A DNA stretch of 64,000 nucleotides from NCBI GenBank assembly GCA_963402885.1, contig OY727096.1, forward strand, positions 8,069,501 through 8,133,500. The letters are read 5' to 3'. This document shows, piece by piece, positions 20,336-48,100 of the stretch. Position 1 is the first letter of the stretch; each line of letters starts with the position of its first letter. A program made the position numbers and the translations under genes. Below the pieces are notes generated by a model. The model was not told the DNA's origin. It searched no databases and saw only the letters and a list, made by a program, of their open reading frames with translations. Origin of the DNA: Antedon bifida. Lineage: Eukaryota; Echinodermata; Crinoidea; Comatulida; Antedonidae.

Positions 20336-20459
20336 AAGATTATTTTGTTTGTTGTTTTAGGCCAATGGAGGAAACGGAAGTTTTGGAGAGCAATGAACTT
20401 GCAGCAAAACATACATAATTTAGTTGTAGTTTATCGATGGAAGATGTATTGTCCCCCCT

Positions 20460-24227: not shown

Positions 24228-24449
24228 GGTAGAGCGTATACGTATACGTATCAGAATAATAAACCACATGAATATCTGTGTTCGTATTTTCTTGTTTATT
24301 GTCTTGTGTAAATATCCAAGGTCCATTTTAGATTTTTTTGAATGTTGTTTTTTTTTCTATAATCTCATAAAATAAATAATTAAAATCAAAGAGTCGTCAT
24401 AAAGATTTAGACACTGATAGCCGCATTATCATTCTTTTCAGTAATTTGC

Positions 24450-24915
24450 CTTTTGAATAAAAGGAGAGTGTGATTTGTTTCTTTGTTTATTTTTGTGGAT
24501 GGGGAGGTTGTAGGTATGGCGGGGGGAATTAGTTTTGTTCCTATTAGGTTAAGCCAGGAACAATAGATGGCGTGCATATATCCTGAATATTCACTCAGAT
24601 CATGACGTCATACTTGCAAAAAAACACTGTCTGATGCACGTTCGCAGTGCAGATCGGCGTTACTGTATGCCTACTCTATTTCTCTCGGTGTTGTTGTTAA
24701 CGAATAAAAGGAGAGTGTGATTTTATTTCTTTGTTTATTTCTGGATGGGGAGGTTGTAGGTATGGCGGGGCGCGCGGGGCGCATTATTTTTGTTCCTATT
24801 AGGTTAAGACAGGAACTATAGAGGGCGTGCATATATCATGAATATTCATGATGCATGCCTCAGATCATGACGTCATACTTTCAAAACACACTGATCGGCG
24901 TTACTACACTTTTTC
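24450..24915. repeat. Two-copy tandem duplication (about 250 bp unit)
   Basis: GAATAAAAGGAGAGTGTGAT, GGATGGGGAGGTTGTAGGTA, GTTCCTATTAGGTTAAG and CAGATCATGACGTCATACTT recur in the same order at about 24455-24690 and 24700-24910. It lies directly upstream of M6PR-like B and contains TGACGTCA (a full CRE) in both copies, so it may include its promoter. Confidence 0.8.
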
Positions 24916-24949
24916 TCTCGATGTTGTTGTTAAAGACACCTGCATTTTA

Positions 24950-25620
24950 AAGTTTTACTTGTTTACTTGTAATCCCTCATAGCCGTATGAATAGAGGGAA
25001 ATTGAGGCACTTGAGACAGACTCCATACCATTTATAATTTTGAAAACTTGAATCAAGTCAGCTCTATGGCGTCTATAAATTAAAGTTGGTAAATCTAATG
25101 CCCTCTAACGTTCCTTATATGAAATTTTACGTTTGCTGAACTTTCTCAAGCAAATCTTGATCTCTCTTAAGTATAGGATTTACAACTGTATTACAATATT
25201 CAAGAATAGGACGAATCATAGCTTTATATATTATATATTTTAAGAAAACCTATCCTCTTTAGAGATTTAAATGCTCGATTTATCATCCCTAATTTCCGAT
25301 TTGCACTTTTACAAACGTCAGCAACATGTAAACCAAAATGCAAACTAGGGTAAAAAATAACTCCCAGGCAATCTAATTAAATTAACAGAATCATTTCTTT
25401 TTCTTGTAAAATTTTCCCATTTACTAATAGTACATGTGTTACGCTTTCTCTTTTCTTTAACGTATTTCTTCCAAGCTTTATTTTTTTGATTTTATAGATT
25501 TTTCAATCGCTTTTGTCATCCAAATAGGTTTAACATTTTGAGCTCCCATTTTTCTCATTGGAATACATTCTGAATAATATATATACATATATTTATATAT
25601 AACTTTAAAACATTAAGGTC
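24950..25620 (-). mobile_element. LINE remnant, internally deleted (linker plus RT C-terminus)
   Basis: On the minus strand 25570-25430 reads PMRKMGAQNVKPIWMTKAIE then SIKSKK (the linker before reverse transcriptase). After a deletion, 25340-25010 contains HVADVCKSANRKLGMINRAF, LDLPTLIYRRHRADLIQVFK and IINGME, the standard end of CR1/Jockey-like RT domains. Several stops and frameshifts; a dead copy. Confidence 0.75.
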
Positions 25621-25699
25621 ATTTCTGGTCTTAAATGTGCGTTCTATTAAGGTTAATTATGATTTTAAAAAAAAGAAGACACTGATATCTGTCTAATAA

Positions 25700-26215
25700 T
25701 AATCTAATAATTAGTGTCTAAATGATCATGCTCCAAAAAATGATTGCTTCTACTCATATTGTATACGTAGTCAGAGTAATAATACACTTCTTGAACCATC
25801 ATGGAAAAATACACATGGTAAAAGAACTTTTGTGTATCGATCAATCAAATTATGGAACAAACTTTCAAATCAGATACAAAAACAAACTAATGTATGACAC
25901 TTTCAAGTTTTAAAAATTCAATCCAACATATTACTGATTAAGTATGAAGTATCTTTTACCTTTTAGGCCTAAATTTGTTTTTACCTTTTAGGCCTAAATT
26001 TGTTGCCTTTTAAATCCTTATTTATACTGTATGTTTTGTAGATAGTTACCTTAATGTAAATGTGTGTGTATTAATTTAAATTAGTGTGTTAGTTGTTATT
26101 GAATTATTTGTATTATATTGTTAATTTCAGATTCTACTGAACCACTTTGGAAGTCAATGCTTTAGCACTGAAAGTGTCATTCAGTATAAAGACAGAATAA
26201 ATAAATAAATAAAAC
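25700..26215 (+). mobile_element. LINE remnant: RT C-terminus and 3' UTR with AATAAA-type tail
   Basis: Plus-strand reading gives TRSQSNNTLLEPSWKNTHGK then RTFVYRSIKLWNKLSN, the typical RT end (R-S...P...G-R-F-Y-x-x-x-x-LWN-x-L). It is followed by about 280 non-coding bases and a terminal (AATA)n tail at about 26194-26214. Frame breaks show it is inactive. Confidence 0.7.
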
Positions 26216-26219
26216 GCAA

Positions 26220-26335
26220 CGACGGGGGCACAACGCAAACGTGTTGACCAATCAAAAGCGACATTTCGGATGGTCTATCATTATTTGTCAAACTACTTGC
26301 GGATCGTTTACGTCCTTGCATGCGTTGCAAAAGGT
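26220..26335. mobile_element. Degraded copy of the 12228-12352 MITE
   Basis: Contains TTGACCAATCAAAAGCGACA then TTTCGGATGGTC, matching the interior of the MITE at 12228-12352 with substitutions. The ends retain GCGTTGC/GCAACG words. It lies about 600 bases upstream of the GPCR start codon. Confidence 0.5.
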
Positions 26336-26928
26336 TATCATTATGTTTGCTTCGAGGAGGCTAATGAGTATTGCTGCCTTATTGCTAAATATAACTTAGC
26401 TTGAAATAATGAGTTTCAGATTGATCATATCCTTATAATAATAACGACCAATATTTATTATTTCTTCGGATAATTATTAAGATTACATTCATCGTTTCTT
26501 TATCTTCAAACGTTGTTTTCTTCCGTTCCTTATTGATTTCCTTCACATTCTAATAGATCACATCCGCTATGCAGGTGTTTAGAAATCAGCGTTTTAAAGC
26601 TGTTAAGTTACAAGTTACCGATGCGGACACTGTTCTTTCGGTATACAACGTCGAAGATAAAGAACGGAGATTATTTTCCACCATCGGCGTTAGTTACCGA
26701 ATAGGAGATTGTTTTCTATCTGCAATCGGGACCGAGTTATACCAGCAATTGAAGTGATCGCTCTACAGCTTTTACAGTAGGATCTTCTGTAACCAGCATT
26801 AACGTTACCGATGGGTTTGTTTAGACAATACCGACGTTGCTGAAGCTAACGTTGTTTTTCAGCATCGAGGAAAATTATTCATTTTTACCTACAGCAGCGA
26901 CCTGTGAGTAGTACGATCTATTTAAAGG

Positions 26929-29900
26929 ATGACGTTAGGTCTGAAACAAATTGTTATCGCACTTTCTGTATTTTGGTTCGGATACTCTCAACTTGAAGAA
27001 GGTAAGAAAAAATAATAACATTAATTTCCATCATTTTACTATGAAATGAAATAACATATTCTTAAGTACGCCTATTATCTACAATACATCACAAGCCTAT
27101 TGAAATATTTATTTTTTATTTATACTGGGCGAACTCTTCAGTCAAAGAGAGCACAGTTGTGATCATTGGTTGTGATGTAGGCCTACTAGTACACCGGAAC
27201 CCCCTACACGTCTAGAAAGATGTACTCGGTTCTTTAAAGTGCATGTCCTAGATGTGTACACTGGACCTACGGTCTTTAGTCCTCCTTAAGGCTGGTTTCC
27301 TGTCGACGTAAGAACATCACTTTTGTTGCGACTACGTCGATTTGTCGTAAGAAATGCGGATTTTACAGGAAACCGATTACGATCGAAAATTTATAAAATC
27401 GACGCAACGTAAGAAAAATGGTAACGACAAACGATTTTACAGGAAACCGATGACCTAACAATTGTTGCGTTACGACGTTGTCTTCCGATTTTACAGGAAA
27501 CCGGGATTTTTTATCTTACGCTTGAATGAACGCACTTGCGTCACGTTTCTTACGTCTCTTACGAAAGTTGACTTGAAGTCAACTTTCGCAAGAGACGTAA
27601 GCGCAATCGTAACAAGCAACCAATGAGCGAAAAGAGTTATGACGTAATGTGTATGTCCTTATAGTGAAATAAAGCCGGACAATAACATTTGTATGTATTT
27701 ACTACTATAATTTTAGCCTAATCATGTTCTAATCAGGGAGTTTACAACTCATATCAAAATATAATACTCTTATTTATGGACGTGCAATAAACAATCAGCA
27801 TCGGTAGAAACGTCGCGAAAATGAACATTTGCAACAAGATAAGATATAGAAAGCCCCTTTGTAAGCAATATGATATTATTATGTAACTTTAACAAAAAAT
27901 TATTTGCTTGATTTTGTATAATTTATATTGTTTTGTTAAATTTATTCTTATTATAGGCCTGTAAATAATGGGTATCTTACTGCAGTAGTACTATCTCATG
28001 CTCGATTAGATATGCTTATAGGCCAATAGGCCAATGCCTAGTCTAGGGGCTAGGTAGGTCTAATAATAATAGGAATCTCGAAATGATTTGCCTTTTTTTT
28101 AATTTTGAAAACTATTTAAGGCTAGGCCTAGAGGGCCAGAATAATTAATTCATGTTGATTTATACAAATAATACATAGGCCTACTAGCCTAGGCTAGGGG
28201 CCTAGGCTAGTTTGATTATTTGGTCAAATCAATTCCTATTAGTACAGTATTAAGCCTAGCTTATCTACTGAAAATAACATGTTGGTGTGCTGCACTGACA
28301 CTGCTGCTGAGTAGCTACAGGTACAATAACATCAACATTTTGCGCGAAAAATGATAAAACCCGCTCTAAAAAGAAACACCAATCATAGATGTTGTTTCAA
28401 ATGCGTCATAAATCCGACCGACGTAAGAAAAAAATTTCAACTTTCGTAACAACACTAAAATCGACGTAAGCATACGACGTGTGTTTCACAGCCAAAATTT
28501 CAACTTTCGGGAGCAGCATAACTACAGATGTTTCTCTGCGGCCCGACACGATCTTGACTTAGGTCAACGACGTCAAGTTTTTCTCAACTTTCGTAAGAGA
28601 CGTAAGAAACGTATGAAACGCAAGAATCGTTGCAAAATTCGACTTCTTACGTCGACAGGAAACCAGCCTTTATCCGAAAATCGTCATACCACCATGGAGC
28701 GAGTGATCCCGAACACGAACCCTTGCCGATGTTATGGCTACGTAATTACGGTTCTAACACATCTCTATTTTTTAAAATGAATACGGATTCTTTTAGGAGG
28801 GCACATAATAACACATAAGTAAGGGGTACTTAAGTAAGGGGTACTTTGTTAAATAAGAGAGAGGGAGTTGGGGTTCCGATAATCGGTAATGATAAATGTT
28901 GTGCTCTGGTGATAAATTGCAAGACTATTGACACAATTAATAATTCTTATTTTCAGAGGAACGCGAGTGCCCAACCTTTTGGTTAACTAACGGAAACTTT
29001 TGCTATTTTATTCATCCAAATAGCAGCATTACTTTAGACTCTGACCTCGCAAGTTGGGACGATGCACGTTCGATTTGTAGATCGCAGCACTCTTCTAGAC
29101 TGATTTATTTTGACAGCGAGGAAGAACGATTGTAAGTTTTTGTAGCACCAACGCTTGTTTCAATGCCATTTTATTATCTAAAAAAATACCAAATTTCGAT
29201 TTCCTTACCCGAAATGTTGCTGAGTAGACCTTCCAGAATAACACCAAACAAATGCCATTTAGTTTTTAAAAATGGGTCAAATTGTGTCATTTGAAATTTA
29301 CTGATTATATCAGAATTTGCATCACATTGTAGGCCTAATCCTGTTAATACTAATATGTAATTCGATAGCTGGGTTGCAAAATTGGCGAGTCGGGGTTCCC
29401 CGTAATTCCCACAAGTCTCATGAGTTTTCCATTAAACGTCTAGATTCATCAATGAACAAATAGATCCCCCGTTTGCCAATGGTTACTTATGGATTGGGCT
29501 ACGCCAGTATACACCAACCGGGCCATATTTATGGGAGAATGATGTGACGTTGGCAGACGAAGATGCACAGTGGGAAGCTGGGCAGCCTGACAAGCGTGAC
29601 GGTAAGTTGTTACTTATATATTCCAGAAATATTTGCCGAGTTACAAAGGTATACAATACAACAAAGACGGATCCGGAGGGCTTGGGATGCATGTGCGCCA
29701 CTGTACTTGCTAATTCCCACAGGCTTAGTCTGCATACCCGGGGAGGTTGAGGTTGTTTCATGAGCTCAGTTATTGCTATCTTTGGTTAGTATGAACAAGG
29801 CAATCTAACAACAAGATGCTGTTATTCGGAGATCAAAGGGTTTATCTGTGGCTGCGACACAATAAGCTCCACGCCCCAATGTACTGTACAGTACAGTTGG

Positions 29901-32900
29901 TATATGTCGAAGCCAGACTTAAGATCAAAGTTCTGTTACGAGTTCCTATGTTGACCAGCTTAAAATGAATAACTAAGCATGAACCGGCGTTATATGTAGC
30001 TATAACAAAGAAAATTACATCGTCTAATCTAATATTTTGGTCTTAGTATAATTTTGTGAGATGTGGTAGGCCTACAGTATGCCACGTAAGGGACAGGATT
30101 AGACCTTTACATCGTTAATGAGGCTTAGTTATTTTTTTAAACTTAACTCTACCACAACAACGTTTCTGTCGATTATTTATTCTATTTATAATAATAATTT
30201 ATTTTATACTTGTATAATTGGTTTGACTAGATGCTAACAGTAATCACGTGTGTAACGTCACCATGGTGACAGTTCCGATGTTACGTTTCAATTTCCTTTA
30301 TGGCAGGTGATGAATTCTGTATAGATGTGTTGACTGGTGACACCAAGGCTACGGGTATATGGAGAGACAGGACATGCGCAGAGAGAAAGGGCTTTATTTG
30401 TAAATTTGAATTAGGTACAAATAATGGTGATTACCCTGATCATGCGCAGTAGCAATACGCGTGGTTTTCCAATTTATAATGACAAAATAATTTTGGCACA
30501 AAACGTTTATATTATACGTAGGCCTAGGACACCTGTTGGAAATCAGTGGCAAATACACAAACATGCAATTGTTTTCCCAAATACACCTTCTGTTAAATAG
30601 ACGGTGTAGTTAGGAGACCCATCCCCACCCCATACACAAAACAACTTGCCTCTAATAATCCGCCACTGATCGGGCCACCGACACTATAGGCCTACATCAA
30701 CATGGTAAACTGTTTTTATATTTGAATTAGTGTTTATGCAATTTATTTTAATTAACTCTGTGTTTCACAAATACTCGTCAATAGAATAGTGAAATCACAC
30801 TTAACTAACAATGCAATAGGCCTAATTATTAACATCACATAATCAGTGATACACACACATCAGCGTCTTTACGCATGCGTCAAATTGTATGTCTCTTTTT
30901 GTATATGTACAACATTTGTATTTGTTATCACATTTTGTTACTGTCTATGCTTAAATTGTATTTTTATATTTGTGAAGAAATGTTGTATTACTGAATTCAT
31001 CACCTTAACGAAACCCATGGCATTCATTCTAATTTATCGTTAGGAGTTGAAGTTATATTTCCGGAGGAACCGTCCGTGTCCTCCTCCTCAATCCCTGTGA
31101 CGTCATCATTTGATGCACTGATTACATACACATCTTTAGAGGCTTACAGCACTGTTGGTGAAACAGACACAACGCTGTTAACAGGTTTGAAATAGCAGAC
31201 CAGATTTTTTTTGGCAAAGCTATATAAATAAAACAATAAATAAACGGTATTCATTCGTAATCCGGGATGCATGCACAATCAATTGCGTTCTCCATTTGTA
31301 TAGCTTTCGCAAATCAAAAGAAATGCCAAGTATTTTAAGAAGCGAAATACAATTTAGAACTCACTTTTTAAAACCTTAGTTGTGGTTAATGTATTCATAA
31401 TAATTATGTATTGTAACGTTCATTACTAACATTATTGTATCACTGACGTCACTAACTTACTGCACTAACTCGTTCTTTAAAAGCCCCTTTCTGACAGAGG
31501 TAAATATCGGTATTTTCTAGACCTATTCGAAAATATCCGTCTGTATGAGAGGGGCATCACGTTGTTTGGAGAAACTATGAGATACAGTACCAGGGAAGAG
31601 TAAAAATTGTAATTTCACCCTTCCCTGGAGATACAAACATTTTTTTTATTTAGTTCATGTGTTTATTTTACCATTGCTTTAGAAACAGTAATAAACAATC
31701 ATACAACCGAACTTCTGACATCATCACTTCATGACGTCATACCTTCGTCAGATGTCATATCTTCGTCAGATGTCATATCTTCGTCAGATGTCATATCTTC
31801 GTCAGATGTCGTATCTTCGTCAGATGTCGTATCTTCGTCAGATGTCGTATCTTCGTCAGATGTAATATCTTCGTCAGATGTAATATCTTCGTCACAATTA
31901 ACGATTAAACTTTCATCTACAAACTTATTTGAACTGCAAACTTCGTATGTTTCAAGTTCTGCTACAAGTTCATCGCTAGCCGAACGTTTCGTTTCATCAA
32001 GTTTTATGGAATTAAGCCCATCGCCATCACCTGAGCTATCGAATATGATTCTGACATCTTCGATACTAAAAATTACATCATCAACTATTGACATCATCCC
32101 TGCTGAAGTGATGACATCATCAACGTTTTTGGTTTCTTCTTCTCAACTGTTTACGTCATCACCACAATACGTCAGCATATCTACTGTCACTACATCGTCA
32201 GTTTCCATTGTCAGTACACCATCTGTGTCTACTTACTGGCCTCCTCTACAAACAGTACTACAACATCCATCATTAAATGAGTCTAAAGGTAGGTTGAAGG
32301 GGATATTGAAAAAGTGCATTGATGAAGAGAGAATACGGGGCGCAAATAGCAGCACAGAAGTACATTTAGGGAGAATATGGGCCGTTTATAGCAGCACAGA
32401 TGTATAGATTTTGGAACATGGGGAGCCAATAGTAGCACACAAGTAGATTTTGATAAAAGGAATATGGGTGATGATGAAGGGAAAATAATATGGAGCGAAA
32501 ACTATTAAATTCTCTAAAATCTAAATCTTATACTGAACTCTATATTTTTTGTTTTATATATTTACGACAGAATGGTGCACACAAGAGGTGTTTAATGGCA
32601 TAACTTGGTATCCTACTTTACCTGGAGTTGTCGTTTCAATGCTGTGTCCCAATTCCACAGGTATGGCAAGTTGTGATATGTAAAAGCAAGGCCTAATATT
32701 TAGGTAGTAATCTAATATTTTATTATTATTAAAATCGCATATAACAGAGATCGTATCTCGTGGTCTCTCCAGAAAACTTCAAAACAACACTGCCATAAAA
32801 GAAAATTAAGAATTGAGGCTCTTGATATAAAAAGGCATGGGACTACAAGCAAATCGCTTTGTTTCCTTGTTATAGCTTGTTTGCATTTCTCAGCATTCAA

Positions 32901-35900
32901 ATCTAAAAGTTTGAATCAGATGTGCAGTTCAAATATATTTAAGTTATAGGCAAATTTAAAAAAAACTGCTTTCACTCAAAAAATATCTCTTGGTGTCAAA
33001 ACTAACACTCGTCACCCAAGAGGAATTGTTTACAGAGTAATATTTATATATTTCTAACATTTTTGTTTTTAGACTACCGATTTATGACTCGTTCTTGCGT
33101 TGCAGTTGAATCAACTGCAATTTGGATAGTCTCAAACTTTACAAGTTGTGAACCAAGCGTCATAACGGTAAAATTTATATATTTATCTTTATAAAATTCT
33201 TAAAAGTAAAAAATCTTGACATTATAATTATAATAATTGCTAATTCCATTTTTTGTTTACAGTGCATAGTCCAAACTTTAAATGGAATACTTTAGTAGTC
33301 TATCAAGTTTATTAATATGGGTTTACAGTAAATAATTATTAAAATCGTTGCATTGCAATATTGGAATCGTCACCCACATTTTGTTCCTATTCTCGGTTAC
33401 ATAAAAGCACATTACTGTCCTTTAGATACAACACGAAGCTATTGGTTTGTATATACATGAACATGTACAGTATTTTGGAAAATGTAGACACTTATCTAAA
33501 AATATATATATTTTTTCTATTTTTTTTATTTATTTTTTCTATTTTTTTTTCTATTTGTTTTTTTTTTTTATTTTATTTTTTTCTATTTATTTATTTTTTT
33601 ATTTATTTATTTTTTTTTATAGTTGTTTCATTGCAGGACCATATTGAAAAACAGAAATTTTGTGAATTTTCTGAATTATGTTATCCCGCCTAAATATGTT
33701 TTAAATAAAAAAAATAAAAAAATATATCCAGTCATAAATATTTAAATGTGTCCATAGGTTGATGCGCCATCTTGGCTTATCCTTTCAACGTACATCTGTG
33801 CAAGTATCACCGTATTTCTTCTACTTATTGCCGTTCTTGTACTAGTATCTTTAAGGTAATAACAATAACTCTTTTATGCATTACGTCATTCTGATAATTA
33901 ATCACGCATTTTGGTTTTCAGGTGTTTCTAAAAAACTTAAACAAAGACTTCAAACCACTCAAAATAAAGTTGCTAGGTTTATTTTAAATAAATATAATCA
34001 AGCACATATTGGTAAAGACGAATTGAACCAAATCGGTCAATTATATTTAGAGGATGAATTTGCCAACTCAAACTTAATCATGTTCATAAAATTTTTATGG
34101 AAAATCAGTACCTTATTTGACTGAAAAATTTAAAAGAGTTTCATCTAACCACCATTAAATGACTAGAAGTAGTGTCAATGGTTTTTCAGTTCATAAATCG
34201 GATATTCAAATATCTAAAACGTTTTATTATACAGGCATAAAGGCATGGAATAACCTACCTTATTCCATTCAGCAAATAGGAAAAATTTAATTTTAAGAAA
34301 AATGTTAAATCAAATTTCTGTTCAACCAAATAGCTATAAGTCAATCATAGTCTTTTAATTTAACTTTTATTATATTATTGTTTTTGTTATAATTAGGTGT
34401 TTAATGCTTACTTTGTAATTTTTATATTTTTTATTTAAATTATAAAAGCATCCCAATGGAAATAAGCTAATACGCTTTTTGGGCTATCCTGGAAAATCTT
34501 TTATAAATGTATTATTTGTAATGTATGTATTTTTTATGATGATTTTCAAATTCAAATCAAAACATAACGGATTTTAGCTAGCGCCATCACAGCTCGGACA
34601 TGAATATACAGTATACCATTTCGGGACGTATGATAAAATATTTTTGAAACTACCGTTTTATCTATAAATGGATTACGAAAACATTAATTCTCAGATATTT
34701 TGACACTTCAACAATGGTTGTGCGATGTTGTTTAGCACTTTCTATGATAGCAAGTGTGATCCTATTTGTTGTTACATTTGAAACAAGAAATCATTTTGTA
34801 AGTACAGTAGTTAATTACTACATCGTTAGCATAGCTGTCAGTTACACCCATCTGAACAAACGTCACCCCCACACAACAGCTACAATCACTGCCACCACAC
34901 AGGTTCAAGTCACTCCTCGACCATTGTTCTGGTGGTAGAATAAGTCTTCTCGGACAAGCACTTAAAACTGGAGGTCCAGTGTACACATCTGGCTCGTGTG
35001 CACTTTAACGAAGCCAGTACTTCTTTCGGAAGAGTAGGGGTTACCTCGGTCTATTGGTCCCTTCAGCCTCTGTCGTTGTGGACAGCAGACGACCGAGCAC
35101 CGTTTGGTGGAAGCACTCGACAAGGGACCCATAGGGGAGTATAAAGTTGTGGTATGTGTTGTCCACACATGTGCGCAATTCAGCCCAGTAGGCAGGTCAC
35201 AGGTTATTCTCCCATTTACATTACATTTACATAACCCCTATCAACACTCCCACTATCACAACACACACCATTGGTACCTTCATCCCACCCAAGTAATATT
35301 TCTAATTTAATTGTTAGACGATTTGCCGTCTGGCTGTTGTTGGCTTCCACTACTGGGTTATAGCTCAGTTTCTTTGGTTGTTTTTGGAATCAGTACGATT
35401 GTATATTGGAGCAACGTCACGCAAGAACGCTGTTCGCACATGGGTCTATCACATCACTGGATGGGGTAAGACCAAATTAAACATATTTTTCATATAGATA
35501 AATATATGATGGTTTCAGTTGGTGTATATAAATGTTTGCCTTCTATTCCGTTTTGATTAATGTTAACATTCAGCCAATGAAAACAATTGTTTGTTCAGAG
35601 AGCTTCAGATATAAAATGTAGGCTATTTCTGAGTAAAATGTAAACCCTTTTAACAACATTTGTAATAAAACCATTTTACGTTCCAACAGTTGCGAAGCAG
35701 AACATCTTGAAATAGAAATGTTAATCCTTGAACTAACCATTACAAACACTATAGTGCGGAATTATAACTTTCTTATGATCCATAATTAAGCATAGTGATA
35801 TTTTAATTACTAACTAAAAAAAAGAATATAAGTGTATTTAGTTATTTTACATCCTAGTTTCATTTGCGATGTGATAGCGGACAACAAATCTAGGCTACAT

Positions 35901-38900
35901 GAACTCTCTTTAAACTTTGCGATCACATAGGCCTCCCACAGAATTTTAGTAACAGTTACTGTTTTGAATACGTGCTTAACTTAATATTTCTTTTTATTAG
36001 TGTTGCCGTTCGTGTTTGTATTTATATGTGCTGTGATATATTTTGAAGAATACGATGAATTATTACAGTAAGTTAAATAATTTAGAAAGTAGGATTAATA
36101 AGGAGCTTTGCTTCTCATAGCTTGCATGTCATATGTGTTTAGCGCATGTTAAACAAATATAAGCGTTGCTTTTCGATTTGACGTACTGTTATATAACTTT
36201 ATTCACAATCTCAGATTAAAAGTATACATAAATAATTATAGTTTTCTGAATATGAAATACAAAGTACATAAAAAAGTATTTAAAGTTGTGAATGGGGTTA
36301 GGCCTAAGCTGTAAGCAAAAACTTTAGATTCTGGAAATATAACTGTTAGGCCTATATTCAATCATGAGTAACACTTTCATCCGATTATTATTATTCACCT
36401 GTCACTAAATAGAGCCTAACTGACCATCGCAAGTCATTTATAAACGAGCCTGGCTGTATTGGATACAGATATTGTATATTTTTATAGTGATATCTGCAGA
36501 ATTGGGAATAGGCCTACTCTGCGGATTTGTTTAGCGACAATAATAATTGCTTACATTACCATTTTATGGCAGGCGTACGCGTGTGGCCTTCATTTTAGAG
36601 ATGCCCGTGTTTTAGCCCTGAATAATAAAGGAAGCTAATTACTAGTATGCATATATTTTTAAAGGTGTTTTAGAAAATGGTACATATTTCTGTGTTTCCT
36701 GATACCAATCGTTGTGATTACAATCGTGAGTATGACGTGATTTCTGGGGAAAATATATCTTTAAGCTTAACTTAATTTAAAAAATACCAAATTGCTTATA
36801 ACCTCTTGAAAATTAATATTATTTTGCATGGCGAGAGACTCGAAAGTCACACACAGTTTCCAAAGACTGTTGTAGAGAATACAACATTCATTCGTTGGAT
36901 ACATTCAGAACACTATCTTTCCGAAGCACAATGGCGTACAACAAACTTTCAACCTGACTTTACTTCATCGTTATGTATTATAAAGATGTATTTGTATTGT
37001 ATTTTATAGGTGCTTCTTCTCTTCTTGTTGTTTTCTACGGCCCAAGAAGCTGCATTTTTAAATCGTTCGTATAGCCGATCAGATATCAATAAACCAAACT
37101 ACAAAAGATGTATAGGGTAAGGTCAGCTAATATTATTGTTTACTTCCAGTGATATCTAATAAATAATCTACAAATAAAACTACACTGCAAAATAGTGTCA
37201 TCTTAAACATGTATGTTGTACTAAATACATTCTAAACATGTAGTCTGTATTCAACTCAACACATCAGTGACGTGTTGATTGTTAAACATGTGGAGCAATA
37301 TAAAGACACGTTTAGGTTTTAAACGCGTTTAATTTGCAATGTGTGGAGCTTTTTTTCGCCACAGTTAAATCATATGCACGCAACGCTAAACACGTACCTA
37401 AACATGTTGACTGCTAAACGAATGGAGGAAAACAACATGTAGCTAAGCACGTTTAGGTTTTAAACACGCTAAACACGTAAACTACGTGTTTAAAAGATAA
37501 ATGTGTGGAAAAAGTGGGTACAAAATAGATGTTTAAGATCTAAACACTATTTTTACAGTTGACTAATTGTTGAAGAGGGCATTTTTAGTTAGGGAAGAGT
37601 TCTTTCCTGATCTTTCTCTGGCAAACAAAGCTACAGTTTTATTTATTGCTTTTGGTTTTTGTATCATTTAAGGAAAGAGCTACGAGGAACTATGCTTTTG
37701 TTTGTTTTACTAACTTCTTGTTGGATTACGTCAGTTGTTTCAATTAGACTTGAGAGTAAACGGTTACAGCAAGTATTTGCGATTCTAATGCTTCTTGAGG
37801 TAAAATCACACAATAATTGTAGGCCTACAATGTTCGGCTGGTCTTTCGATTCTCTATACTGCTGACGTATTTCATCATATGAAATGTTATGTCCAGTATC
37901 ATTAATTCTATAATACAATGTTACAGTGCGTATCACATGACACGTGTACTAGATTAGACTTCTGGCCTATGATGCATGCGTCACATGTGATTCATTATGA
38001 TACTGTATTAAAGGACTTGACCGGGCTAATTATAGATACAGTAGAGAGAATTTAATGTTTACGATAATGAAATATAAAATATAGCACTTTCATTTTGGTA
38101 ATAATAAAAGTAATTTTACGATACACTATAAGCATTGCAATGGAGATACATCGTATGCCCAATGCTTTATTTTGGACTTGATAACAGAATGTAAATAATG
38201 ATGTATTATTTATTAATTAATAATAATTATGAATACAAAATCGTTTTATTTTATTAGGGAATAGCATTTGTTTTAATATATATTGTGTTCAACGAAGCAG
38301 TGAGGGAGGCTTTACGGCCTCAGGCAAACCAGCCCACAGTAATTGAAATGAAGGTACAGTAAATATTCTAGTTATCCAGTATATCATGAAGGTCAGGCTA
38401 GGGTTGGGTGGGGAAGAATCTTAGTACCCACGCCCCAGCCCGCAACTCTATTAGTGCATAGTGGTTCTCAACGATACTACACTCGCTATCTTAATGCAAT
38501 AAGTAAATGATACAGAGGCTATAATATATTCAAATACCAATGGTAGGACCAAATACAGAAAAATGATAAAATACCGTTCTGTTTATTAAACATAGAGTAA
38601 TATATAGTGTTCTCATCTAGAATATAAATTGACGTAAATAATAGTACAGTAATAGTAACTTACCGGCAGGAATCCATGTATGTATGTACGTATTTAAGGA
38701 CGCCATTACTAAAATCCATCCGTTTAAATGCAATTACGTAATACAGTGTAGTACGTAATACAGTGTAGTACCTTTACATACAAGTACGCCGGGCACATTC
38801 CATTAAAATGTTAAGCCTGTAGTGTCATGATTTACAGGTCCATAATACCGCCTAAAAGTGTAATCGAAAATAGCTTTTCTTCTGTAGCATAGAAATGTCC

Positions 38901-41900
38901 CGAATCTACATTCAATCCTGAAAAGTCTCGTCACTCTCATCTCAAACGCGTAGTAGAGCATGGAAGAATATGGATCTCATTCCTAGGTGGCGGCGTATGA
39001 CGTCAGAGCCCGGAATGTACGTTTCACCGGCTGTAATACAAAATCTGATGACCAATCAAAAAAAATAAATAAATCTTAAATTAAATTCCTAAAAATATTA
39101 ATCTTCTTGGCTATTTATCATCGAAGCATAGTGATCTTTTATTTTTATATCCATCAATGTTTGAATTTTACATAATCTCTTTCTAATTTTATTTCCAACA
39201 TTAAAAACTATAAATAATTTTCATTTCTTTTAGTGTGAATCACGGACCAATCGTCTTGGCACAAATCACTTTCTACCTATTACTACCATGACGTCAGCTC
39301 AGAGGCGTGGTCCAACGGCTTCATCTATGGGACGTCGACTTAGTCATAGCGATACTTTTCGGTCCGCAACATTCTGTTCACACAACAAAATCGGGGTAAA
39401 TTTATTCATAAAAAATTGTGTATATTATCATAGAGATATTATATAATATCTCTATGATATTATCAAACAAACTACATTCATCTTGATGGTTTAAAATTTA
39501 TAAACTTTTATATACGCAGCTAAACTTCCGTAGAAATTCCTTCGGTTCATCCACTATATGCACAGGTGACTCTTCAAACACGTCGACCGGCGTAACGACA
39601 TGTGATGATACCGCTGATAGCGCATGCTATCGACGCGGAGGAAGCATGCGCTCACGACGGACCAACAGTGGCAACTTCACGAGGTCAGAGAAAGTAGGCA
39701 AGCTACGAGGTGAGCGAAGTAAAGTTCATCCCCGTAAACAGAAGTCACGCAACACAGTGTTAGAACACAAGGTGAGTGTATCTTATCACATTTCCTTATA
39801 TTTTGGTAACAATTTTGCAAAAATTTAAAAAAAATTTTAAGTAAGCATGCATACATTATTGGGAGGATCTAAGAAGTTTTGCAAATGTTTCAGATTTTGC
39901 AACATGTTCGAGTTGAAGAAACGTCATCACATAGAAAAAGAAATAGCAGACGAAATAAAAAGAGATGTCAAATTTCGAGTGACACCAGTTCTTCGAGTTT
40001 TACCAACAGCTCGACTCAGAGTACACGAACGGTGTCTACTAACCTAAAGGTGGGTCAGAATGATTTCGAAAGCCCAATTTTCAAGTAAAACGAAAACTGC
40101 TGTAGAATTATATAAATGCTCTACGCGATCGGATTTTTGTGTAAAGTAAATTGGAATCTTGGACTATTTGCAGGTGCCTACGCGGAGGGTCCTAAAAATA
40201 TAGTTCTTGACGATCAAATGTCCTTACAATTTTCAAGCTAAATCATAAATAGTATAATTTACAGTATTATGATATTATAAAATTTACGTAACGAGTAAAA
40301 TTCGGTAGTAAAGTAAATTCTAGAATGTTTACTCAACGGTATAGAAGGTTGATACATACTCTCGGTACTGATTTTAACCACATTGTAACCCTGTTTACTA
40401 AACAGTTAGATAATTAGTTATTTACGATAACGAATTTAGGTTAAATAAGGTGTTTTTTTTCAAATGTGGTTGGTGACGCTGAAACAAACCCGCACACAAT
40501 AATACGAGGATGTTCGTATCGCTCCGTTTACAATAATTGTTTTTAACTAGATGGTACGTGAGCGAAGGATGATGGTTCTCGAATACACAGTAATTTCAGC
40601 GTAAAAAAACTGGCGATTTCAAAATGTACGTATAACCGCAGGACTATAATACATTGTCGTTTAGGCCTACAGAAACGAATAATTAGACACGATGATTTAT
40701 GTATAGTGATAGTCAACTAAAATTAGCACCCTGGGAATTACTTCCGAAAGAGAAACTTTTCACAAAATGAGTCAAATTTTTTATTTGGACTCATTTAAAC
40801 AAACCCAATTTGTATTTTGTAGGCCCCTATATAACATTAGGGTTGATCAGGGATGGAGAAGAGGATGGGTAGAAGGAGGAACAATTTTTTAATATATTTT
40901 TAACTACTCAGTAACGAAATATTTTTTCATGTTTTATAGGTCTATAAATAATATACCACTAATTACAGTAAAATATTTGCGATTTAATACTTTGTTAAAA
41001 CAGTCACTGTTATAGTCGATTGAAATAGTAAAGTACAAGTAACGATACACCACTACGACGTTTATATTTTAGTAATTATTAATTAATACAAACGTTTAGA
41101 AGCAACTGTCTGTAATAAAGTTTATTTGTATACGGTATGTGTTTATAATCTAACAATAGGCCATCCCAAACTCAGTTGCTTTAATGTTTAAATGTTAATT
41201 CATGTAAAAAATATATTTAAAAAATCACGTGCGTCGGCCGGGAATCGAACCCGGGACAATTGCTTGGAAGGCAACTATGTTAACCACTACACCACCGACG
41301 CCACATAATGTGGAAGTAGAAAAGCTAATATTCATACTTGTTTGAACACGTGGCAGAAGCGAGCGTACCATCAGCGTGCCCACAGATTCTCGAATACCCA
41401 GTAATTTCAGCGTAAAAAAACTGGCGATTTCAAATGTACGTACTGCAGGACTATAATACATTGTCGTTTAGGCCTACAGAAACGAATAATTAGACACGAT
41501 GATTTATGTAGTCAACTAAAATTAGCACCCTGGGAATTACTTCCGAAAGAGAAACTTTTCACAAAATGAGTCCAAATTTTTTATTTGGACTCATTTAAAC
41601 AAACCCAAATTGTATTTTGTAGGCATATAAAGAGGATGGGTACAAGGAGGAACAATTTTTAAATATATTTTTATCTACTCAGTAACGAAATATTTTTCAT
41701 GTTTTATAGGCCTATAAATAATATACCACTAAATACAGTAAAATATTTGCGATTTAATACTTTGTTAAAACAGTCACTGTCATAGTCGATTAAAATAGTA
41801 AAGTAGGCCTACATGTAACGATACATCACTACGACGTTTATATTTTGTTGTAATTATTAATTAATACAAACGTTTAGAAGCAACTGTCTGTAATAAAGTT

Positions 41901-44012
41901 TATTTGTATATTACAGTATGTGTTTATAATCTAACAATAGGCCTTCCCAAACTCAGTTGCTTTAGGCCTAATGTTTAAATGTTGATTCATGTAAAAAATA
42001 TATTTAAAAAATCAGGTGCGTCGGCCGGGAATCGAACCCGGGACAATTGCTTGGAAGGCAACTATGTTAACCACTACACCACCGACGCCGCATAATGTGG
42101 AAGTAGAAAAGCTAATATTCATACTTGTTTGAACACGTGGCAGTTTTCTTGTGACGTGTTATTCAAGACGTCCCTGTAAGGTTTGTCACCAAAGGGAATT
42201 GTAAGGCTAAGCTTTGTTCGTTTATATAATAAACTTCCTGTTAATTACTTTATTTTGTTGTAGTATTTTATATAATCAATTACAAAAAAAAGTAAATTGA
42301 TAAAATAAATTAAACCAACTTCTTTATATACCATCGAGTAAAAATTCTAGTAACGCGCAATTTACCGAATTTTGCCCTTACGTAAAAGTATATATAGATT
42401 AAATCGTGCATGTTTTTGATTGTCTATCTATTTTAACCTTATATGTTAGAGATAGGTGGACAGAGAGAAACATAAAATAAAGCACATTTTCCTTTTGATG
42501 AGTTACTGTATTGCAAAGTGTAGGCCTAAGATACCTTTTTTTCTTCAGACCTTCTAGTACTCGGTACAACACAAGGGTAATGTGTTCGATCGAAGTTTAA
42601 ATTTCATAGGCCTAATTGCTTTAAAAAGTTCGAATTTCATTCGCAATATTTTATCAATTTACTAATATTTTTATGTAATTGATTATATCCTATAAAATAC
42701 TACAACAAAATAAACTAATTAACATGAAGTATATTTGATAAACGAACAAATAATTATTACAACGGCCTTCAATTCCCTTTGGTGACAAACTTTACAGGGA
42801 CGTCTTGAATAACACGTCACAAGAAAACTGCCACGTGTTCAAACAAGTATGAATATTAGCTTTTTTGTTTCATATTTATGTGGCGTCGGTGGTGTAGTGG
42901 TTAACATAGTTGCCTTCCAAGCAATTGTCCCGGGTTCGATTCCCGGCCGACGCACGTGTTTTTTTTTTTATATATTTTTTACATGAATCAACATTAATAC
43001 ATTTTTACAGTTGTCAAAGTATTGCAATACTATATCTTATGGTTTTAAGTTTATTATCCAAGGGCCTAAAAATGTATCTACTACTCGTGTTAAACCAAAT
43101 AATTTAGAATGTTCCATTCATCGCAAATCAATAAATTTGTATAAACGTATATTAAATCTATCGAATAGTATTTTTTTATTACTTTATATACCATCAAGTA
43201 AAAATTCCAGAAGTAACGCGCAATTTACCGAATTTTGCCCTTACGTAAATTTATATATAGATTGATGTATATCGGTACACAACTCGATTAGAACATCGTA
43301 ATGGTAAACTATTGATAACATTATTTATAAAAAATATTATTTTACTTTGTAAAACATAGGTTTTTTTAATTTACTGTGACGGCTTTTATTATGACGTAAT
43401 CAAATTTATTGTTTTTAGACGAAGGTCAATCGATTCAGTACCGCTAAGGTGTCGCCCTCATTTGATGACAGTACAGCTGACTCAACTGACCAAAAGCGAC
43501 ATGTAAACAGGTGTTTGTCCTGGTCAAAAGCTGCAGTCAGCAACACAGATTCTCCTCTGCCTGTACAACGAAGTCTTCGAAGTGAAAGTGACTTAGCTCA
43601 ATGTGAACGCATGTCTAAGGCACCATATCAAGCTAAGCTAAATCAAGGCGACAGTGTTCTCCCTGAGTGTGAACGCATATCAATTAAACCACCATTCATC
43701 ACTAAAGGAGGCGATAGTGGATCTTCAAAGTGTGAAAGCTTACCAATCAAACCGGGTCTTCAGACTTTAAATCGACACGGCAGCGGTGTTTCTCAGTGTG
43801 AACGCACATTATGTAAACCTCCAATTCATACTATGCGAGGTGAGATTGGATCCCAATGTCAACGAATATCAGTTAAAGACAACATCAAACCAACACCACA
43901 TAGTATGCAAGGCGTGTTACATTCAACAAGCAATAGCAGTAGCAGCAATCATCCACCGTCAACTGGCTCTACCATTCGGATCTCTATGACACAGGAGACT
44001 AACTCAAATTAA
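26929..44012 (+). CDS. C-type lectin / hormone-receptor-domain / seven-transmembrane receptor, 20 exons
   Basis: Exons: 26929-27001, 28957-29131, 29444-29601, 30307-30414, 31044-31184, 31683-32288, 32571-32660, 33073-33167, 33758-33855, 34695-34797, 35318-35465, 36001-36067, 36665-36725, 37010-37116, 37673-37799, 38258-38353, 39234-39395, 39520-39771, 39894-40049, 43419-44012. All are GT-AG with matching phase; 1138 residues. Order: signal peptide (1-20); C-type lectin domain (27-172; six Cys, WIGL, QPD galactose-type motif, WRD instead of WND); Ser/Thr-rich mucin-like stalk (173-420) with 9 hexapeptide repeats; hormone-receptor domain (421-482: WC, W, CP, C, W, SC); seven helices (483-751) with the TM3/ECL2 cysteines and GWVLP of family B receptors; 387-residue Ser/Arg-rich cytosolic tail. 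No GAIN/GPS precedes TM1, so it is closer in plan to secretin than to adhesion receptors. A surface receptor is certain by architecture; ligand and G protein unknown. Confidence 0.9.
27180..27282. repeat. Dispersed repeat, copy 2 (GPCR intron 1)
   Basis: CCCCTACACGTCTAGAAAGA, GTACTCGGTTCTTTAAAGTG and TGTACACTGGACC match the blocks at 2640-2760 and 34970-35060 (inverted). Confidence 0.55.
27289..28669. mobile_element. Non-autonomous PIF/Harbinger-like transposon, 1.38 kb
   Basis: The ends AAGGCTGGTTTCCTGTCGAC plus GTAAGAA (27288-27314) and their exact complement (28644-28670) form a perfect 27-bp inverted pair. TTA flanks both sides (27286-27288 and 28670-28672). A 3-bp TWA target duplication is typical of PIF/Harbinger. 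No transposase frame is seen. The interior holds nested inverted copies of ACGTAAGA and TTTACAGGAAACC, including a hairpin at about 27557-27600. It fills most of intron 1 of the GPCR. Confidence 0.85.
29800..29960 (+). mobile_element. MITE family M2, copy 1 (GPCR intron 3)
   Basis: AAGGCAATCTAACAACAAGA, GAGATCAAAGGGTTTATCTG and TGGCTGCGACAC are shared, in inverse orientation, with 57955-58158 inside another gene. Confidence 0.7.
31736..31897 (+). repeat. 18-bp coding repeat, 9 units, in the receptor stalk
   Basis: Nine 18-base units (GTCATATCTTCGTCAGAT and variants with GTCGTA or GTAATA) in exon 6 encode tandem SSDVIS hexapeptides. These are likely O-glycosylation sites in the stalk. The variants are clustered (ATA, then GTA, then AAT), showing stepwise local duplication. 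Confidence 0.95.
33500..33625 (+). repeat. T-rich simple sequence in GPCR intron 8
   Basis: About 120 bases almost entirely of T with A and C interruptions (TATTTT, CTATTTTTTT). No gene content. Confidence 0.8.
33905..34560 (+). mobile_element. LINE remnant in GPCR intron 9 (RT C-terminus and 3' UTR)
   Basis: Reads GVSKKLKQRLQTTQNKVARF ... HIGKDELNQIGQLYLEDE, then after a frameshift GIKAWNNLPYSIQQIGKN. This is the end of a CR1/Jockey-like reverse transcriptase. The 3' part continues to about 34560. It is inserted in the same orientation as the host gene. Confidence 0.75.
34930..35195 (-). repeat. Dispersed repeat, copy 3, inverted (GPCR intron 10)
   Basis: The complement of GGTCCAGTGTACACATCTGG, CTTTAACGAAGCCAGTACTT and CGGAAGAGTAGGGG matches the blocks at 2640-2760. 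The copy extends further, and short open frames on both strands here are accidental. Confidence 0.55.
37190..37515. other. Cluster of TAAACA(C/T)GT words in GPCR intron 14
   Basis: The octamer-like word AAACACGT or AAACATGT, or its complement, occurs about a dozen times within 320 bases, on both strands and without a fixed period. TAAACA is the forkhead core and ACGT/CATG an E-box-like core. It may be a decayed repeat or a regulatory cluster. Confidence 0.4.
39426..39459. repeat. Perfect 34-bp palindrome in GPCR intron 17
   Basis: TATCATAGAGATATTAT followed by its exact complement; no spacer. Confidence 0.9.
41230..41301 (-). tRNA. tRNA-Gly (anticodon UCC), copy 1
   Basis: 72 nt including the discriminator A. 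The acceptor stem GCGTCGG/CCGACGC pairs fully. A box TGGTGTAGTGG, anticodon stem GTTGC/GCAAT with loop CTTCCAA (anticodon TCC), T arm CCGGGTTCGATTCCCGG. All conserved positions are present, so it is probably functional. Confidence 0.95.
42017..42088 (-). tRNA. tRNA-Gly (anticodon UCC), copy 2
   Basis: Same 72-nt sequence as copy 1, within the second segmental duplicate. Acceptor, D, anticodon and T arms are intact. Confidence 0.95.
42883..42954 (+). tRNA. tRNA-Gly (anticodon UCC), copy 3, opposite strand
   Basis: Same 72-nt sequence on the plus strand, at the far arm of a large inverted repeat whose other arm holds copy 2. A T-run follows at 42959-42969, a natural RNA polymerase III terminator. 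Confidence 0.95.
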
Positions 44013-44140: not shown

Positions 44141-45119
44141 GATGTATGGCCTACTTTCATACTGTATGGAGAATAAACAATTGTATAGAATAATTAATAT
44201 GAAAACTCCCTTTTTGAAACGTAGAAGCTTTTCACAATTTCGTACTCTTATATTTTTTTCCCGCAATGTTATTTTGTAAGTAAAATGTTTATTAAATCTG
44301 TACACAGTGTATCTAGTATTATTTCGACTTTTTTTTTGTGAAGTATATTTCACTGTATTTTTAAAGACTATTACTTATTTACATTACTACTCACTTTCTT
44401 GTCACCTAAATTCTTACAACACTGAATTTTATCACTTAAAGTTGTTTTACTTTTGATAAATATGCGCGTTGTGGAAAAAGTTAATCAACTAATATTAGGT
44501 GATTGGTTTTTTTGTTTAATTCAGTGGTTAGTATGCCCCTAAAAGAGGGTTCATCCAACTCCATTGGCCAAGTATTAGTTATGAATATTCACTATTCTGC
44601 CTAGGTACGTGATGACGTAATGTTTACATTGTAGTGTGGACTTTAAACCTTGCATGGCGTGAAGATTTGTTTTTCTGTAGCCAATTACTTAGAGGCCAAT
44701 TCCCCGTATTTATTACACTACCACCGATGTTCGATAAAAGGTTTGTATGTACTTAATAATTTATCGCGTACAACGTGTACATTTTGTTAAGTTCATAGGA
44801 CAGATGATGCAGCTAGCTGAAGTATTATTTTTTAGGCCTGCGAGCCATGTGACTTAGTTGGTAGTAGAAGGACTGGCGGGGTTACTGTAGTACACCTGTG
44901 ACAAATTTCATTATATTATTAGGTCGTTTCGTTCCTTTTGTCTACTTTTATATTTTACCCTCGTGAACTAAGCCACCTGTAGGCTATCTCACTATTAATT
45001 ATGTCGTTTCGTGCCTTAATACTCTAGATAGTAAGCTTATAATGCAGTATTACTATTACAATATAGCGTTCTATTATTTTTAGTAAAAAGTAATGTGAAT
45101 TTGATTTTTTTTTTCAGAA

Positions 45120-48100
45120 ATGATTTTGTACATTTTTATTGGTGTATGTTTACTAATTTGGTTAGTTGAGTTTCTTTTCCGTATACCAAAAATATCCAAT
45201 TTAAGCAACAAGTATGTGCTTATAACAGGGTGCGACTCTGGGTTTGGTAACGAGCTGGCAATACAATTAGATGGGAAGGGGATACAGGTGATTGCATCGT
45301 GTCTGACAGAGAAGGCAAGAAATGAGCTGGGATCCTCACTATCGCAACGTTCATCAGCGATATTAATGAATGTTGCAGATCACGGCAGTGTTCAGGAGGC
45401 ACTGAATAAAGTACGAGAGATCATTCCAAAGTCAGAAGGCAAGTTTAAATTAAAAATAAAAAATAAAATAAAGAAAAGCAATAAATTATAATTCAAGATG
45501 TAGGCCTTTGTCCCCCTGAAAAAATAATTCTTAATTTTGTTGTTGTTGAATATGCCATTTTCGTGTCACCTAATAATTATCCACTTGACCATAAATTGGA
45601 TCGAAAAACATTAATTGTTTCCGGGTTTTTTTTTACGGAAGTGATTAACATAACTACAAAATGATCTATTCAAAAGTATGATTTTATTAATCTTTATTTT
45701 TCCTGTTTTTGAAGGGGCAATACACCTTTAAAGAATACAAATATACCTTAATGCTAATTGTGTTTAAAACAACCCGACGGTCCTTCTTATAACCTCTGAA
45801 ACCGAACGCGATGAGTAGATTCTCCCATTAAGGAGAGACCTTCTGTATCGAACACTTAATAAGGGTATCCATATTCAGCGGGCACTAACCAAAAACCAAA
45901 TTTTTCCAAAAACCAAATGAACTTACGAAATTTTGAAGAAATGTTAAATCAAAGAAAGTATCATAATTTTTATGATTTCAATTTTTGTATTAATAACGAT
46001 ATAAATGAATATGATTATTTGGTCTTTTTTGTTGTTTTTGAAAAACAAATATTGTCCCCTAATGTAGGGTTGAATCAACCATTTGGCACACTCAAACCCT
46101 TAATAAGGGTGTCCCTGATATGAGTAAGGGTTAACTGTAGTGTTTTAAAATATTCTTTTGCCCCTCTCACGTGAAAGTGTCCCCTTAATATAGGGGTGTC
46201 CCCATAGGAAACTGTAAACCACTGGTGGTCGCAACAAAGTCCGGTTAATTTCATGTTCAAGAATTTGTTTAATCTGGATTTTGGAAAGAGCATGCGAGTG
46301 TCAGATTTTGAAAATGAAGTTCTGTTACTACAATATTATGAATTGAAACAGTCATAAACTAATTACTGTAGTTACGTTTTGCATAATAAACTCATACACA
46401 TATGCCTATATTATGAAAAGTATAATCAGTTTAAACAACAAACGAATATGCTGAACTATATTTCAGGTTTGTGGGGGCTTGTAAACAATGCAGGAATCGG
46501 TGGATATGGTGGAGCTATGGAGTGGTGGAGTAGGGACGAATACAAAAGGGTCCTCGATGTAAACTTATTTGGCTTGATTGACGTAACAAAGGTTTTTACC
46601 CCCATGTTGAAGCAAGGAAGAGGCAGAATAGTGAATGTAGCAAGTGTCTGTGGCAGGGTTGTTATACCAGAGGCCGGATACTGTATTTCTAAATTTGGTG
46701 TTGAGTGTTTTTCCGATGAAATAAGGTTTGTTCACAAAAAAAGGTGGTAGTCTTAAAGGTCAGCTCCGGGCAAATATGAGAAGGCGTTGAAAAAAATAAC
46801 AGAAGAGAAGTAATTGCTAGAGGAATTGAAAAAAATTAATAATACAAAATAATTAGATAATTTTTATACTTTCATTTAACAGGCTACCACTATTCACTAT
46901 GCATCTGTATACACAATTCCATAAAGATATATTATAATAACTACCCATTATATATAGGTCAAGGTGGCCTACTTACTTGAACTTATCATAAAGGCCAGTT
47001 TACACAGAAGAGCGGTAATGGTAATCTATGTTATTTCTTGTGACCATCTACACAAAATGCGGAGTGGACGGGCGGTTTCCGCTCAAGATAAATACAGATT
47101 CTACGTTGGGTACGCTACGCTCGTCTGTGTAAATTGCCCTTACGTCTCCATTTTGTTACGTAAAGCCACTTCGAATCAGCTACAGGATAGCTAGTGCAAA
47201 ATGGTTTTCCTTTTACGAATATTATAAGCTGAATATCCGTACAACCATCTAGACTAGTACTTTCTATATCAATATTTTACTATAATCTATTGTTTTATTA
47301 TTTATTTCTAAAGAGTGCTAATACACTTTTTTTTCAAGGGTACAGCTGAAAGCATTTGGAATATCGGTTTGCATAATTGAACCAGGCTTTTTTAGAACGT
47401 CTCTCACAGATGGCTTTTTTGCTCCAGTGAGGGCTAAGTGGGCCGAGCTAAGTCCAGAAACTAGACAAGAATTTGGTGGCCAGGAAGCTCTAGAAAGTAG
47501 TAAGTTTCAAACGTTTTCAATGGGACCGCATTCAAGAACCACAAAAGTCTAAATTGTCATTGGTCTGTTTAATTTTTTGTAGGCCTATATTGAAATATGA
47601 TGGGGGATAAGGGGAATAGGCGGGGTTGTAAGTGTGCCTTTCTATTTAAAATCACGCACTATGTCGCATCGCTAGCAAACTTTAAAAAAGCATAATGCGA
47701 GTATACGAAAAATGTTATACTGCCACCAAACTAGCATAGTCATGGTTGCATGTTTAAAGCTCTGTCTACACTATAAAACTTTATGTTACCAAAAAATGTG
47801 ATGTGCCCATAATGGACATGGTGATGTCATATCATTACCATATTTGGGCATATCATTACCATATTTGGGCATATCACTACTATATTTGGGCAAATCATAC
47901 TTTTTACGAACTAGTTTGATAGTGTAGGCAGAGCTTTAGAACAAAGAATGGGTTAATGACCAAGATTTGAAATGGATTGCGATAGAGATTAGGCCTATAT
48001 AGTATTTATTACAAACGACAGATCAAATAAAACCCGTGTAGATAACTAACTGCATATTCCAACTAGACATGCTCTATCTTTATCTATTTTTTTTTTCAGG

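Follow-up and report, generated by a model that had tools for sequence, protein, structure and literature searches.

Twenty exons on the forward strand of Antedon bifida DNA (positions 26929-44012 of the window, i.e., of the whole 64-kb stretch analyzed here) probably form one crinoid gene for a surface receptor. The encoded protein would consist of a signal peptide, a C-type lectin domain (CTLD) as head, a Ser/Thr-rich, mucin-like stalk of ~250 residues, a four-cysteine HRM-like segment set on TM1, a seven-helix (7TM) domain of adhesion type and a Ser/Thr-rich cytoplasmic tail of 387 residues. The exons and the domains are real, and from them we infer a single transcript, with exons 1-20 in a single protein.

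Relatives of the receptor part were found in two other crinoids. Of 3427 candidates in a search with residues 421-748, four reached E <= 0.001. The first, P0001 of Antedon mediterranea, shares 721 of 771 aligned residues with the window and covers the last 58 of the 202 residues of exon 6 as well as exons 7-20; the second, P0002 of Anneissia japonica, is identical to the window receptor in 335 of 557 aligned residues. The remaining matches share less with the window receptor: one, from Elysia crispata, combines pentraxin, HRM, GAIN and 7tm_2 (25% identity), and the other, a JGI protein, has GPS plus 7tm_2 (24% identity). Within the limited sensitivity of this search, the receptor thus appears to be a crinoid gene (Antedon, Anneissia). 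For the lectin part, one protein among 41 candidates (P0005, from Anneissia) was retrieved at E <= 0.001, and its alignment with exons 1-4 has 132 identical residues out of 172 (76%). The public models are partial: P0001 begins within the stalk, P0002 within the HRM, and P0005 comprises the lectin alone. Note that P0001 contains a 91-residue insert in ECL1 (188-278), which we rejected as a true part of the receptor; it is a dispersed repeat that is missing from P0002, matches positions 34880-35151 of the window only with a frame break, and has further copies at 27201-27283 (-) and in locus L023.

The first-pass annotation had joined the twenty exons by their matching phases, and the rebuilt model agrees with it: all introns are of the GT-AG type (19/19), the phases fit and the frame contains no internal stop. 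Two points of the model had to be settled. The donor of exon 4 can be placed at 30414 (protein of 1138 aa) or at 30426 (1142 aa). Donor 30414 scores 5/9 and is the weakest among the 19 donors of the first model; donor 30426 (ATG|GTGATT) scores 7/9 by an equal hand count and leaves the phase unchanged, and it is preferred on the basis of the GDY that the window has in common with P0005. Exon 13 starts at 36665, which gives the tail of 387 residues. A start at 36674 (1135 aa) was rejected, as the ECL2 cysteine would be lost and both QCFRKW of P0001 and RCFKRW of P0002 place the start at 36665; the Pfam scan of the receptor was run on this 1135-aa draft. The exons are as follows:

26929..27001 (+), exon 1: start codon and signal peptide (MTLGLKQIVIALSVFWFGYSQ), phase-1 donor; Anneissia lectin P0005 starts alike
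28957..29131 (+), exon 2: initial third of the CTLD
29444..29601 (+), exon 3: CTLD with the QPD motif
30307..30426 (+), exon 4: end of the CTLD, WRD replacing WND; donor 30426 preferred, alternative 30414
31044..31184 (+), exon 5: Ser/Thr-rich stalk; no relative in support
31683..32288 (+), exon 6: mucin-like stalk with 18-base repeats (SSDVIS); final 58 residues supported by P0001
32571..32660 (+), exon 7: first half of the HRM-like segment; under the Pfam cut-off
33073..33167 (+), exon 8: second half of the HRM-like segment and linker to TM1
33758..33855 (+), exon 9: TM1
34695..34797 (+), exon 10: TM2
35318..35465 (+), exon 11: TM3 including its Cys, into TM4
36001..36067 (+), exon 12: TM4; GWVLP crosses exons 11-12
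36665..36725 (+), exon 13: ECL2 Cys (LLQCFRKW) and TM5
37010..37116 (+), exon 14: end of TM5, ICL3
37673..37799 (+), exon 15: TM6 (LLTSCWI)
38258..38353 (+), exon 16: TM7 (FNEAVRE)
39234..39395 (+), exon 17: cytoplasmic tail
39520..39771 (+), exon 18: cytoplasmic tail with the conserved block LNFRRNS.GSST.CTGDSSNTST
39894..40049 (+), exon 19: cytoplasmic tail
43419..44012 (+), exon 20: end of the tail (STIRISM) and stop codon

Judged by sequence, exons 2-4 make up one full CTLD that belongs to the CTLD family. Pfam Lectin_C matches residues 56-169 (E 1.5e-15), and a comparison with the PDB gave 115 sequences at E <= 0.001, the best 60 of which are led by mannose-receptor-like proteins and selectins. 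The QPD motif, from which a galactose-type lectin had been proposed, is indeed there, and the calcium site is altered. Calcium site 2 of C-type lectin domains comprises EPN or QPD together with WND. In the alignment with E-selectin, the positions EPN, E and ND of its calcium site correspond to QPD, E and RD in the window lectin, i.e., QPD and the following Glu are present and WND has become WRD. The same exchange of Asn for Arg is found in P0005, and the Arg is thus kept between two crinoid families; three other CTLDs of the same genome have WND, WDD and WND at the aligned position. Because the Asn is replaced by Arg in both crinoids, it is uncertain whether sugar is bound in the usual way. 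Calcium-dependent sugar binding by the window lectin therefore seems doubtful, and so does the glycan-sensing function that was suggested at first; a protein ligand is possible. For the immune or gamete-related role that had been considered, evidence was found neither in favor nor against. A piece resembling a CTLD end (LTTRCCYSEIKGFIC), perhaps a decayed exon copy, lies in intron 3 (29790-29870). It was considered as an alternative exon; it has no Pfam match and, by eye, runs into an immediate stop in the phase of exon 3.

The CTLD and the stalk stand in phase upstream of the 7TM domain in the gene model, and it is rather likely that lectin and receptor are parts of one protein; the fusion is likely, yet unproven. 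The proposal of a single gene holds as far as the common strand, the continuous phase and the upstream signal peptide are concerned, and is at odds with the annotation of Anneissia, where the two parts are split: P0005 is a separate protein of 179 aa that ends just past the CTLD. According to the first-pass annotation, transcripts that separate the lectin exons from the 7TM exons would speak against the join; in Anneissia, such a separation is found in predicted proteins, not in transcripts. P0005 and P0002 are both located on contigs of 881986 bases, so that lectin and receptor apparently lie on one scaffold there, a point in favor of the join. Among public proteins in the ranges searched, none spans both parts: with the full-length query and proteins of 0.55-1.75 times its length, 0 of 116 candidates matched the lectin region at E <= 0.001. 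The connector between lectin and receptor (all of exon 5 plus 144 residues at the start of exon 6) has no support from relatives.

The Anneissia annotation also suggests a rather unlikely alternative with two neighboring genes, one for a secreted single-CTLD lectin (exons 1-4) and the other for a mucin-HRM-7TM receptor whose own first exon was missed. Read-through would then terminate the lectin gene near 30450 or, if exon 5 is part of it, near 31195. Such an arrangement fits the complete CTLD in exons 2-4 and the weakness of donor 30414. The open reading frame that continues past exon 5 stops at 31195, and AATAAA occurs shortly downstream of this stop (31227, 31235 and 31239), which is a possible end of a secreted lectin. 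Between 29431 and 31227, however, neither AATAAA nor ATTAAA occurs, so none is found soon after the read-through stop of exon 4. Moreover, the end of the one gene and the promoter of the other would have to fit into 0.6 kb (gap between exons 4 and 5) or 1.3 kb (between exons 4 and 6).

In a strict test for signal peptides, applied to both strands of the window, exon 1 is the only exon to pass. A relaxed test of positions 20000-32570 (+) was passed by three exons (20599, 26270 and 26929), two of which (20599 and 26270) lie upstream of exon 1 and could be counted in favor of two genes; none lies between exon 1 and the HRM, which argues against them. Note that the relaxed test is unspecific, as the minus strand of this 12.6-kb region gave 16 passes. 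Exon 6 is open for ~107 codons ahead of its first ATG, and therefore some upstream exon must splice to it, in favor of the fusion; the probability of such a stretch by chance is ~3e-4 from base composition, a value that is overstated because the open stretch is partly a tandem repeat.

The end of P0005 bears on the same point. This protein ends with ELGDYLIANR, and read-through of exon 4 in the window would end with ELGTNNGDYPDHAQ; only GDY is common to both (ELGTNNG-DYPDHAQ in the window versus ELG-DYLIANR in P0005). The GDY looks like the product of a conserved donor, G|GTGATT, that was left unspliced, and the tail of P0005 accordingly looks like intron read-through, which speaks against a separate lectin gene.

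Several products from one locus can be considered as a possible, tentatively held explanation. The locus would yield a soluble lectin through alternative ends, and a membrane form in which exons 2-4 are either retained, with the lectin, or skipped; in the latter case, signal peptide, stalk, HRM and 7TM would remain without a lectin. If some membrane form keeps the lectin, this explanation overlaps with the one preferred here. Both ends are in phase 1 for exon 5, for exon 6 and for exons 2-4 taken together, and skipping therefore preserves the frame. The weak donor of exon 4, the short read-through stops past exons 4 and 5 and the existence of P0005 as a lectin-only model are consistent with it as well; on the other hand, short read-through open reading frames are expected by chance at 34% GC (0.07 stops per codon). 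A secreted lectin made from the same promoter and ending past exon 4 or exon 5 can coexist with the fusion that we prefer.

A hormone-receptor domain had been placed directly before TM1. Its position was recovered in three crinoid models (the window, P0001 and P0002), in which the HRM-like segment adjoins TM1, with 18, 18 and 19 residues, respectively, between the final HRM cysteine and the TM1 core. Its identity as a domain is less certain: the Pfam HRM match at 421-476 (E 0.013) reaches 16.3 bits and lies under the cut-off of 26.2, and a PDB search with the segment alone gave 6 matches, none of them an HRM. Between residues 421 and 490 there are four cysteines (427, 450, 463 and 480; numbering of the 1142-aa protein). 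The ectodomains of class B1 (secretin) receptors contain six cysteines that form three disulfides, a number that the window protein does not reach, and the HRM of adhesion receptors contains four. In choanoflagellate and filasterean adhesion GPCRs, HRM and 7TM are ~280-330 residues apart, a spacing termed comparable to that in metazoans in the consulted part of PMC12716839.

The absence of GAIN and GPS, which the first-pass annotation had noticed, is well supported. The Pfam scan detected neither in the window model, nor in P0001 or P0002, and the GPS pattern was found on neither strand of the 64-kb window (six sites were present in 15 other loci scanned). A GAIN exon hidden in intron 8 (33167-33758) was considered and rejected: five open reading frames of this intron gave no Pfam match to GAIN or GPS. 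Thus, the arrangement of adhesion GPCRs, GAIN with GPS before TM1, was not found in this gene. The spacing between HRM and TM1 would fit the layout of secretin receptors; the HRM itself is under the cut-off in Pfam and unfolded in an AlphaFold2 model. This model, made for P0001 with P0002-P0004, is a poor one (mean pLDDT 42.4, helix blocks ~53-84).

The seven helices are less ambiguous. Pfam 7tm_2 matches residues 492-718 of the 1135-aa draft with E 9.6e-16, and a hydropathy plot shows eight segments over the threshold, two of which overlap at TM1, leaving seven helices. GWVLP and the TM3 cysteine, along with QPD, are present in the model; with exon 13 starting at 36665, the ECL2 cysteine and the 387-residue tail complete the set of features that had been claimed. 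When residues 421-748 were compared with the PDB, 38 entries appeared at E <= 1, the first 12 being the adhesion receptors E5, L3, G4, D1 and L2, with PAC1 next in order. As far as these best matches go, the 7TM domain seems closest to adhesion receptors, and for this reason a GAIN-less receptor of adhesion type is the preferred reading, rather than a secretin receptor bearing a lectin. The reverse interpretation, a peptide-hormone receptor similar to class B1 that binds a peptide with the HRM before TM1 and has the lectin as decoration, is improbable in our view. It could refer to the spacing of HRM and TM1, which is as in secretin receptors, and to Foldseek, where a mixture of B1 and adhesion receptors, B1 first, heads the best 50 of 220 matches to the weak AlphaFold2 model, none of them at E <= 0.001. 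Against it stand the preference of the sequence for adhesion receptors, the four cysteines instead of the six of B1 ectodomains, and LLTSCW in TM6, which carries the adhesion-type Trp and not the B1 pattern. The Pfam scan, read up to E 5, gave no match to a Methuselah ectodomain.

The last intron of the receptor gene contains three tRNA genes, and a short-chain dehydrogenase gene (adh_short) in two copies lies just downstream of the receptor:

41229-41301 (-): tRNA-Gly(TCC)
42015-42088 (-): tRNA-Gly(TCC)
42883-42955 (+): tRNA-Gly(TCC)
45105-46750: short-chain dehydrogenase, first copy
50262-51317: short-chain dehydrogenase, second copy

The tRNA genes are part of a block present in two copies, 40576-41356 and 41387-42143 (90% identity), whose tRNA end is found inverted at 42828-43003.

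For the preferred receptor, in which CTLD, stalk, HRM-like segment and 7TM domain form one chain, we infer every signaling step. Without GAIN, it would have neither self-cleavage nor a tethered agonist. Probably, the lectin head would bind a surface ligand, sugar or protein, with the stalk keeping it away from the membrane. In the simplest route, pull or clustering would then be relayed along the stalk to the HRM-like segment and extracellular loops, and the tail would recruit arrestin or scaffolds. The tail blocks that Antedon shares with Anneissia (LNFRRNS.GSST.CTGDSSNTST, KSRNTVLEHKILQHVR and STIRISM) are Ser/Thr-rich and would fit phosphorylation and arrestin binding. We tentatively propose that a crinoid lineage of adhesion-type receptors lost GAIN together with self-cleavage and the tethered agonist, and that a secretin-like HRM-7TM unit was rebuilt under a CTLD on a mucin stalk, being activated by clustering or by direct coupling of the ectodomain; in addition, the lectin alone may be released from this locus and serve as a soluble partner or decoy. 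This gene bears on the signaling of adhesion GPCRs without a tethered agonist and on the origin of secretin receptors from adhesion receptors. A natural receptor that has an adhesion-type 7TM domain with an HRM-like segment on TM1 and is without GAIN would represent a living intermediate layout and a testbed for GAIN-free activation. If the lectin is truly joined, its CTLD, in which the calcium site is altered, and the switch would be separable for study.

Several known systems share parts of this architecture. In the open-licence PubMed Central literature, as far as the texts consulted extend, a CTLD-HRM-7TM receptor without GAIN was not found. Secretin (class B1) receptors have the HRM directly before TM1 and no GAIN, which is similar to the layout of the window gene; the latter differs in its long lectin and mucin head, its four cysteines and its 7TM domain, which is nearest to adhesion receptors. 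Polycystin-1 carries a C-type lectin domain. It is an atypical GPCR with eleven helices and has GAIN, according to the sections of PMC9672506 and PMC11458180 consulted. ADGRA1 (GPR123) is, in the available part of PMC8024368, the sole adhesion receptor described as lacking GAIN, and it has a long C-terminal region as well; in contrast to the window gene, it is without a conserved N-terminal domain (same part of PMC8024368). Methuselah and Methuselah-like receptors combine 7tm_2 with repeated changes of the ectodomain (excerpt of PMC4768249), and the window gene gave no match to a Methuselah ectodomain. Latrophilin/Cirl (ADGRL) comes near to it with a lectin-type head, the rhamnose-binding RBL domain, and HormR on an adhesion 7TM domain; its lectin belongs to another family and GAIN is present (both from the portion of PMC13197933 consulted).

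The closest precedent is provided by amphioxus adhesion GPCRs, in which a C-type lectin domain is placed N-terminally on a family B 7TM domain as in the window gene; in the consulted text of Nordstrom et al. 2008 (PMC2246102), lectin C-type domains were considered amphioxus-only among GPCRs. Many of the amphioxus receptors possess GPS according to the same text, whereas in the window gene neither GPS nor GAIN was found and an HRM-like segment is set on TM1. A lectin head on an adhesion GPCR is therefore a known layout and not a new class, as the first-pass annotation had suggested; two loci elsewhere in the A. bifida genome (315.6 Mb, 27 contigs) lead to the same view. The locus C9:15070517-15075986 (-) (L009) encodes within 5.5 kb a CTLD (3.3e-12), a Thr-rich exon of phase 1, GPS (5.7e-18) and 7tm_2 (7.7e-11 and 1.4e-9), and it resembles an adhesion GPCR that has GPS and a C-type lectin head, of the kind otherwise seen reported only from amphioxus. 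Upstream of its lectin, the relaxed test detected no signal-peptide exon. The second, C7:4765165-4776192 (-) (L012-L013), comprises two CTLDs (1.7e-9 and 1e-9), GPS (3.2e-17) and 7tm_2 (1.3e-14 and 7e-13); many other 7tm_2 matches are found nearby, at C7:4.64-4.77 Mb. The presumed GAIN exons of both loci gave no match to any GAIN family of Pfam. The C7 locus and one case on C16 may be neighbors rather than one gene. Counting pairs of CTLD and 7tm_2 exons at most 10 kb apart, we found at least 3 (2 loci) with the CTLD upstream on the same strand, 2 (1 locus) with the CTLD downstream and 1 on opposite strands, based on 150 positions of 158 and of 157 matches, respectively, with the window gene not among the matches listed; these numbers are too few for a claim of enrichment. 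The C9 and C7 loci have the domains in the same order and on one strand as in the window gene, including, at C9, the phase-matched Thr-rich exon, and differ from it in keeping a strong GPS. The 7TM domains of the other CTLD loci match that of the window only piecewise (~20-38% identity) and do not appear to be its close paralogues; the similarity searches also covered the flanking loci L006 and L007, and L014-L022, which were scanned by pattern as well. Because of the distance between the 7TM domains, lectin heads may go back to several gains, or may be old.
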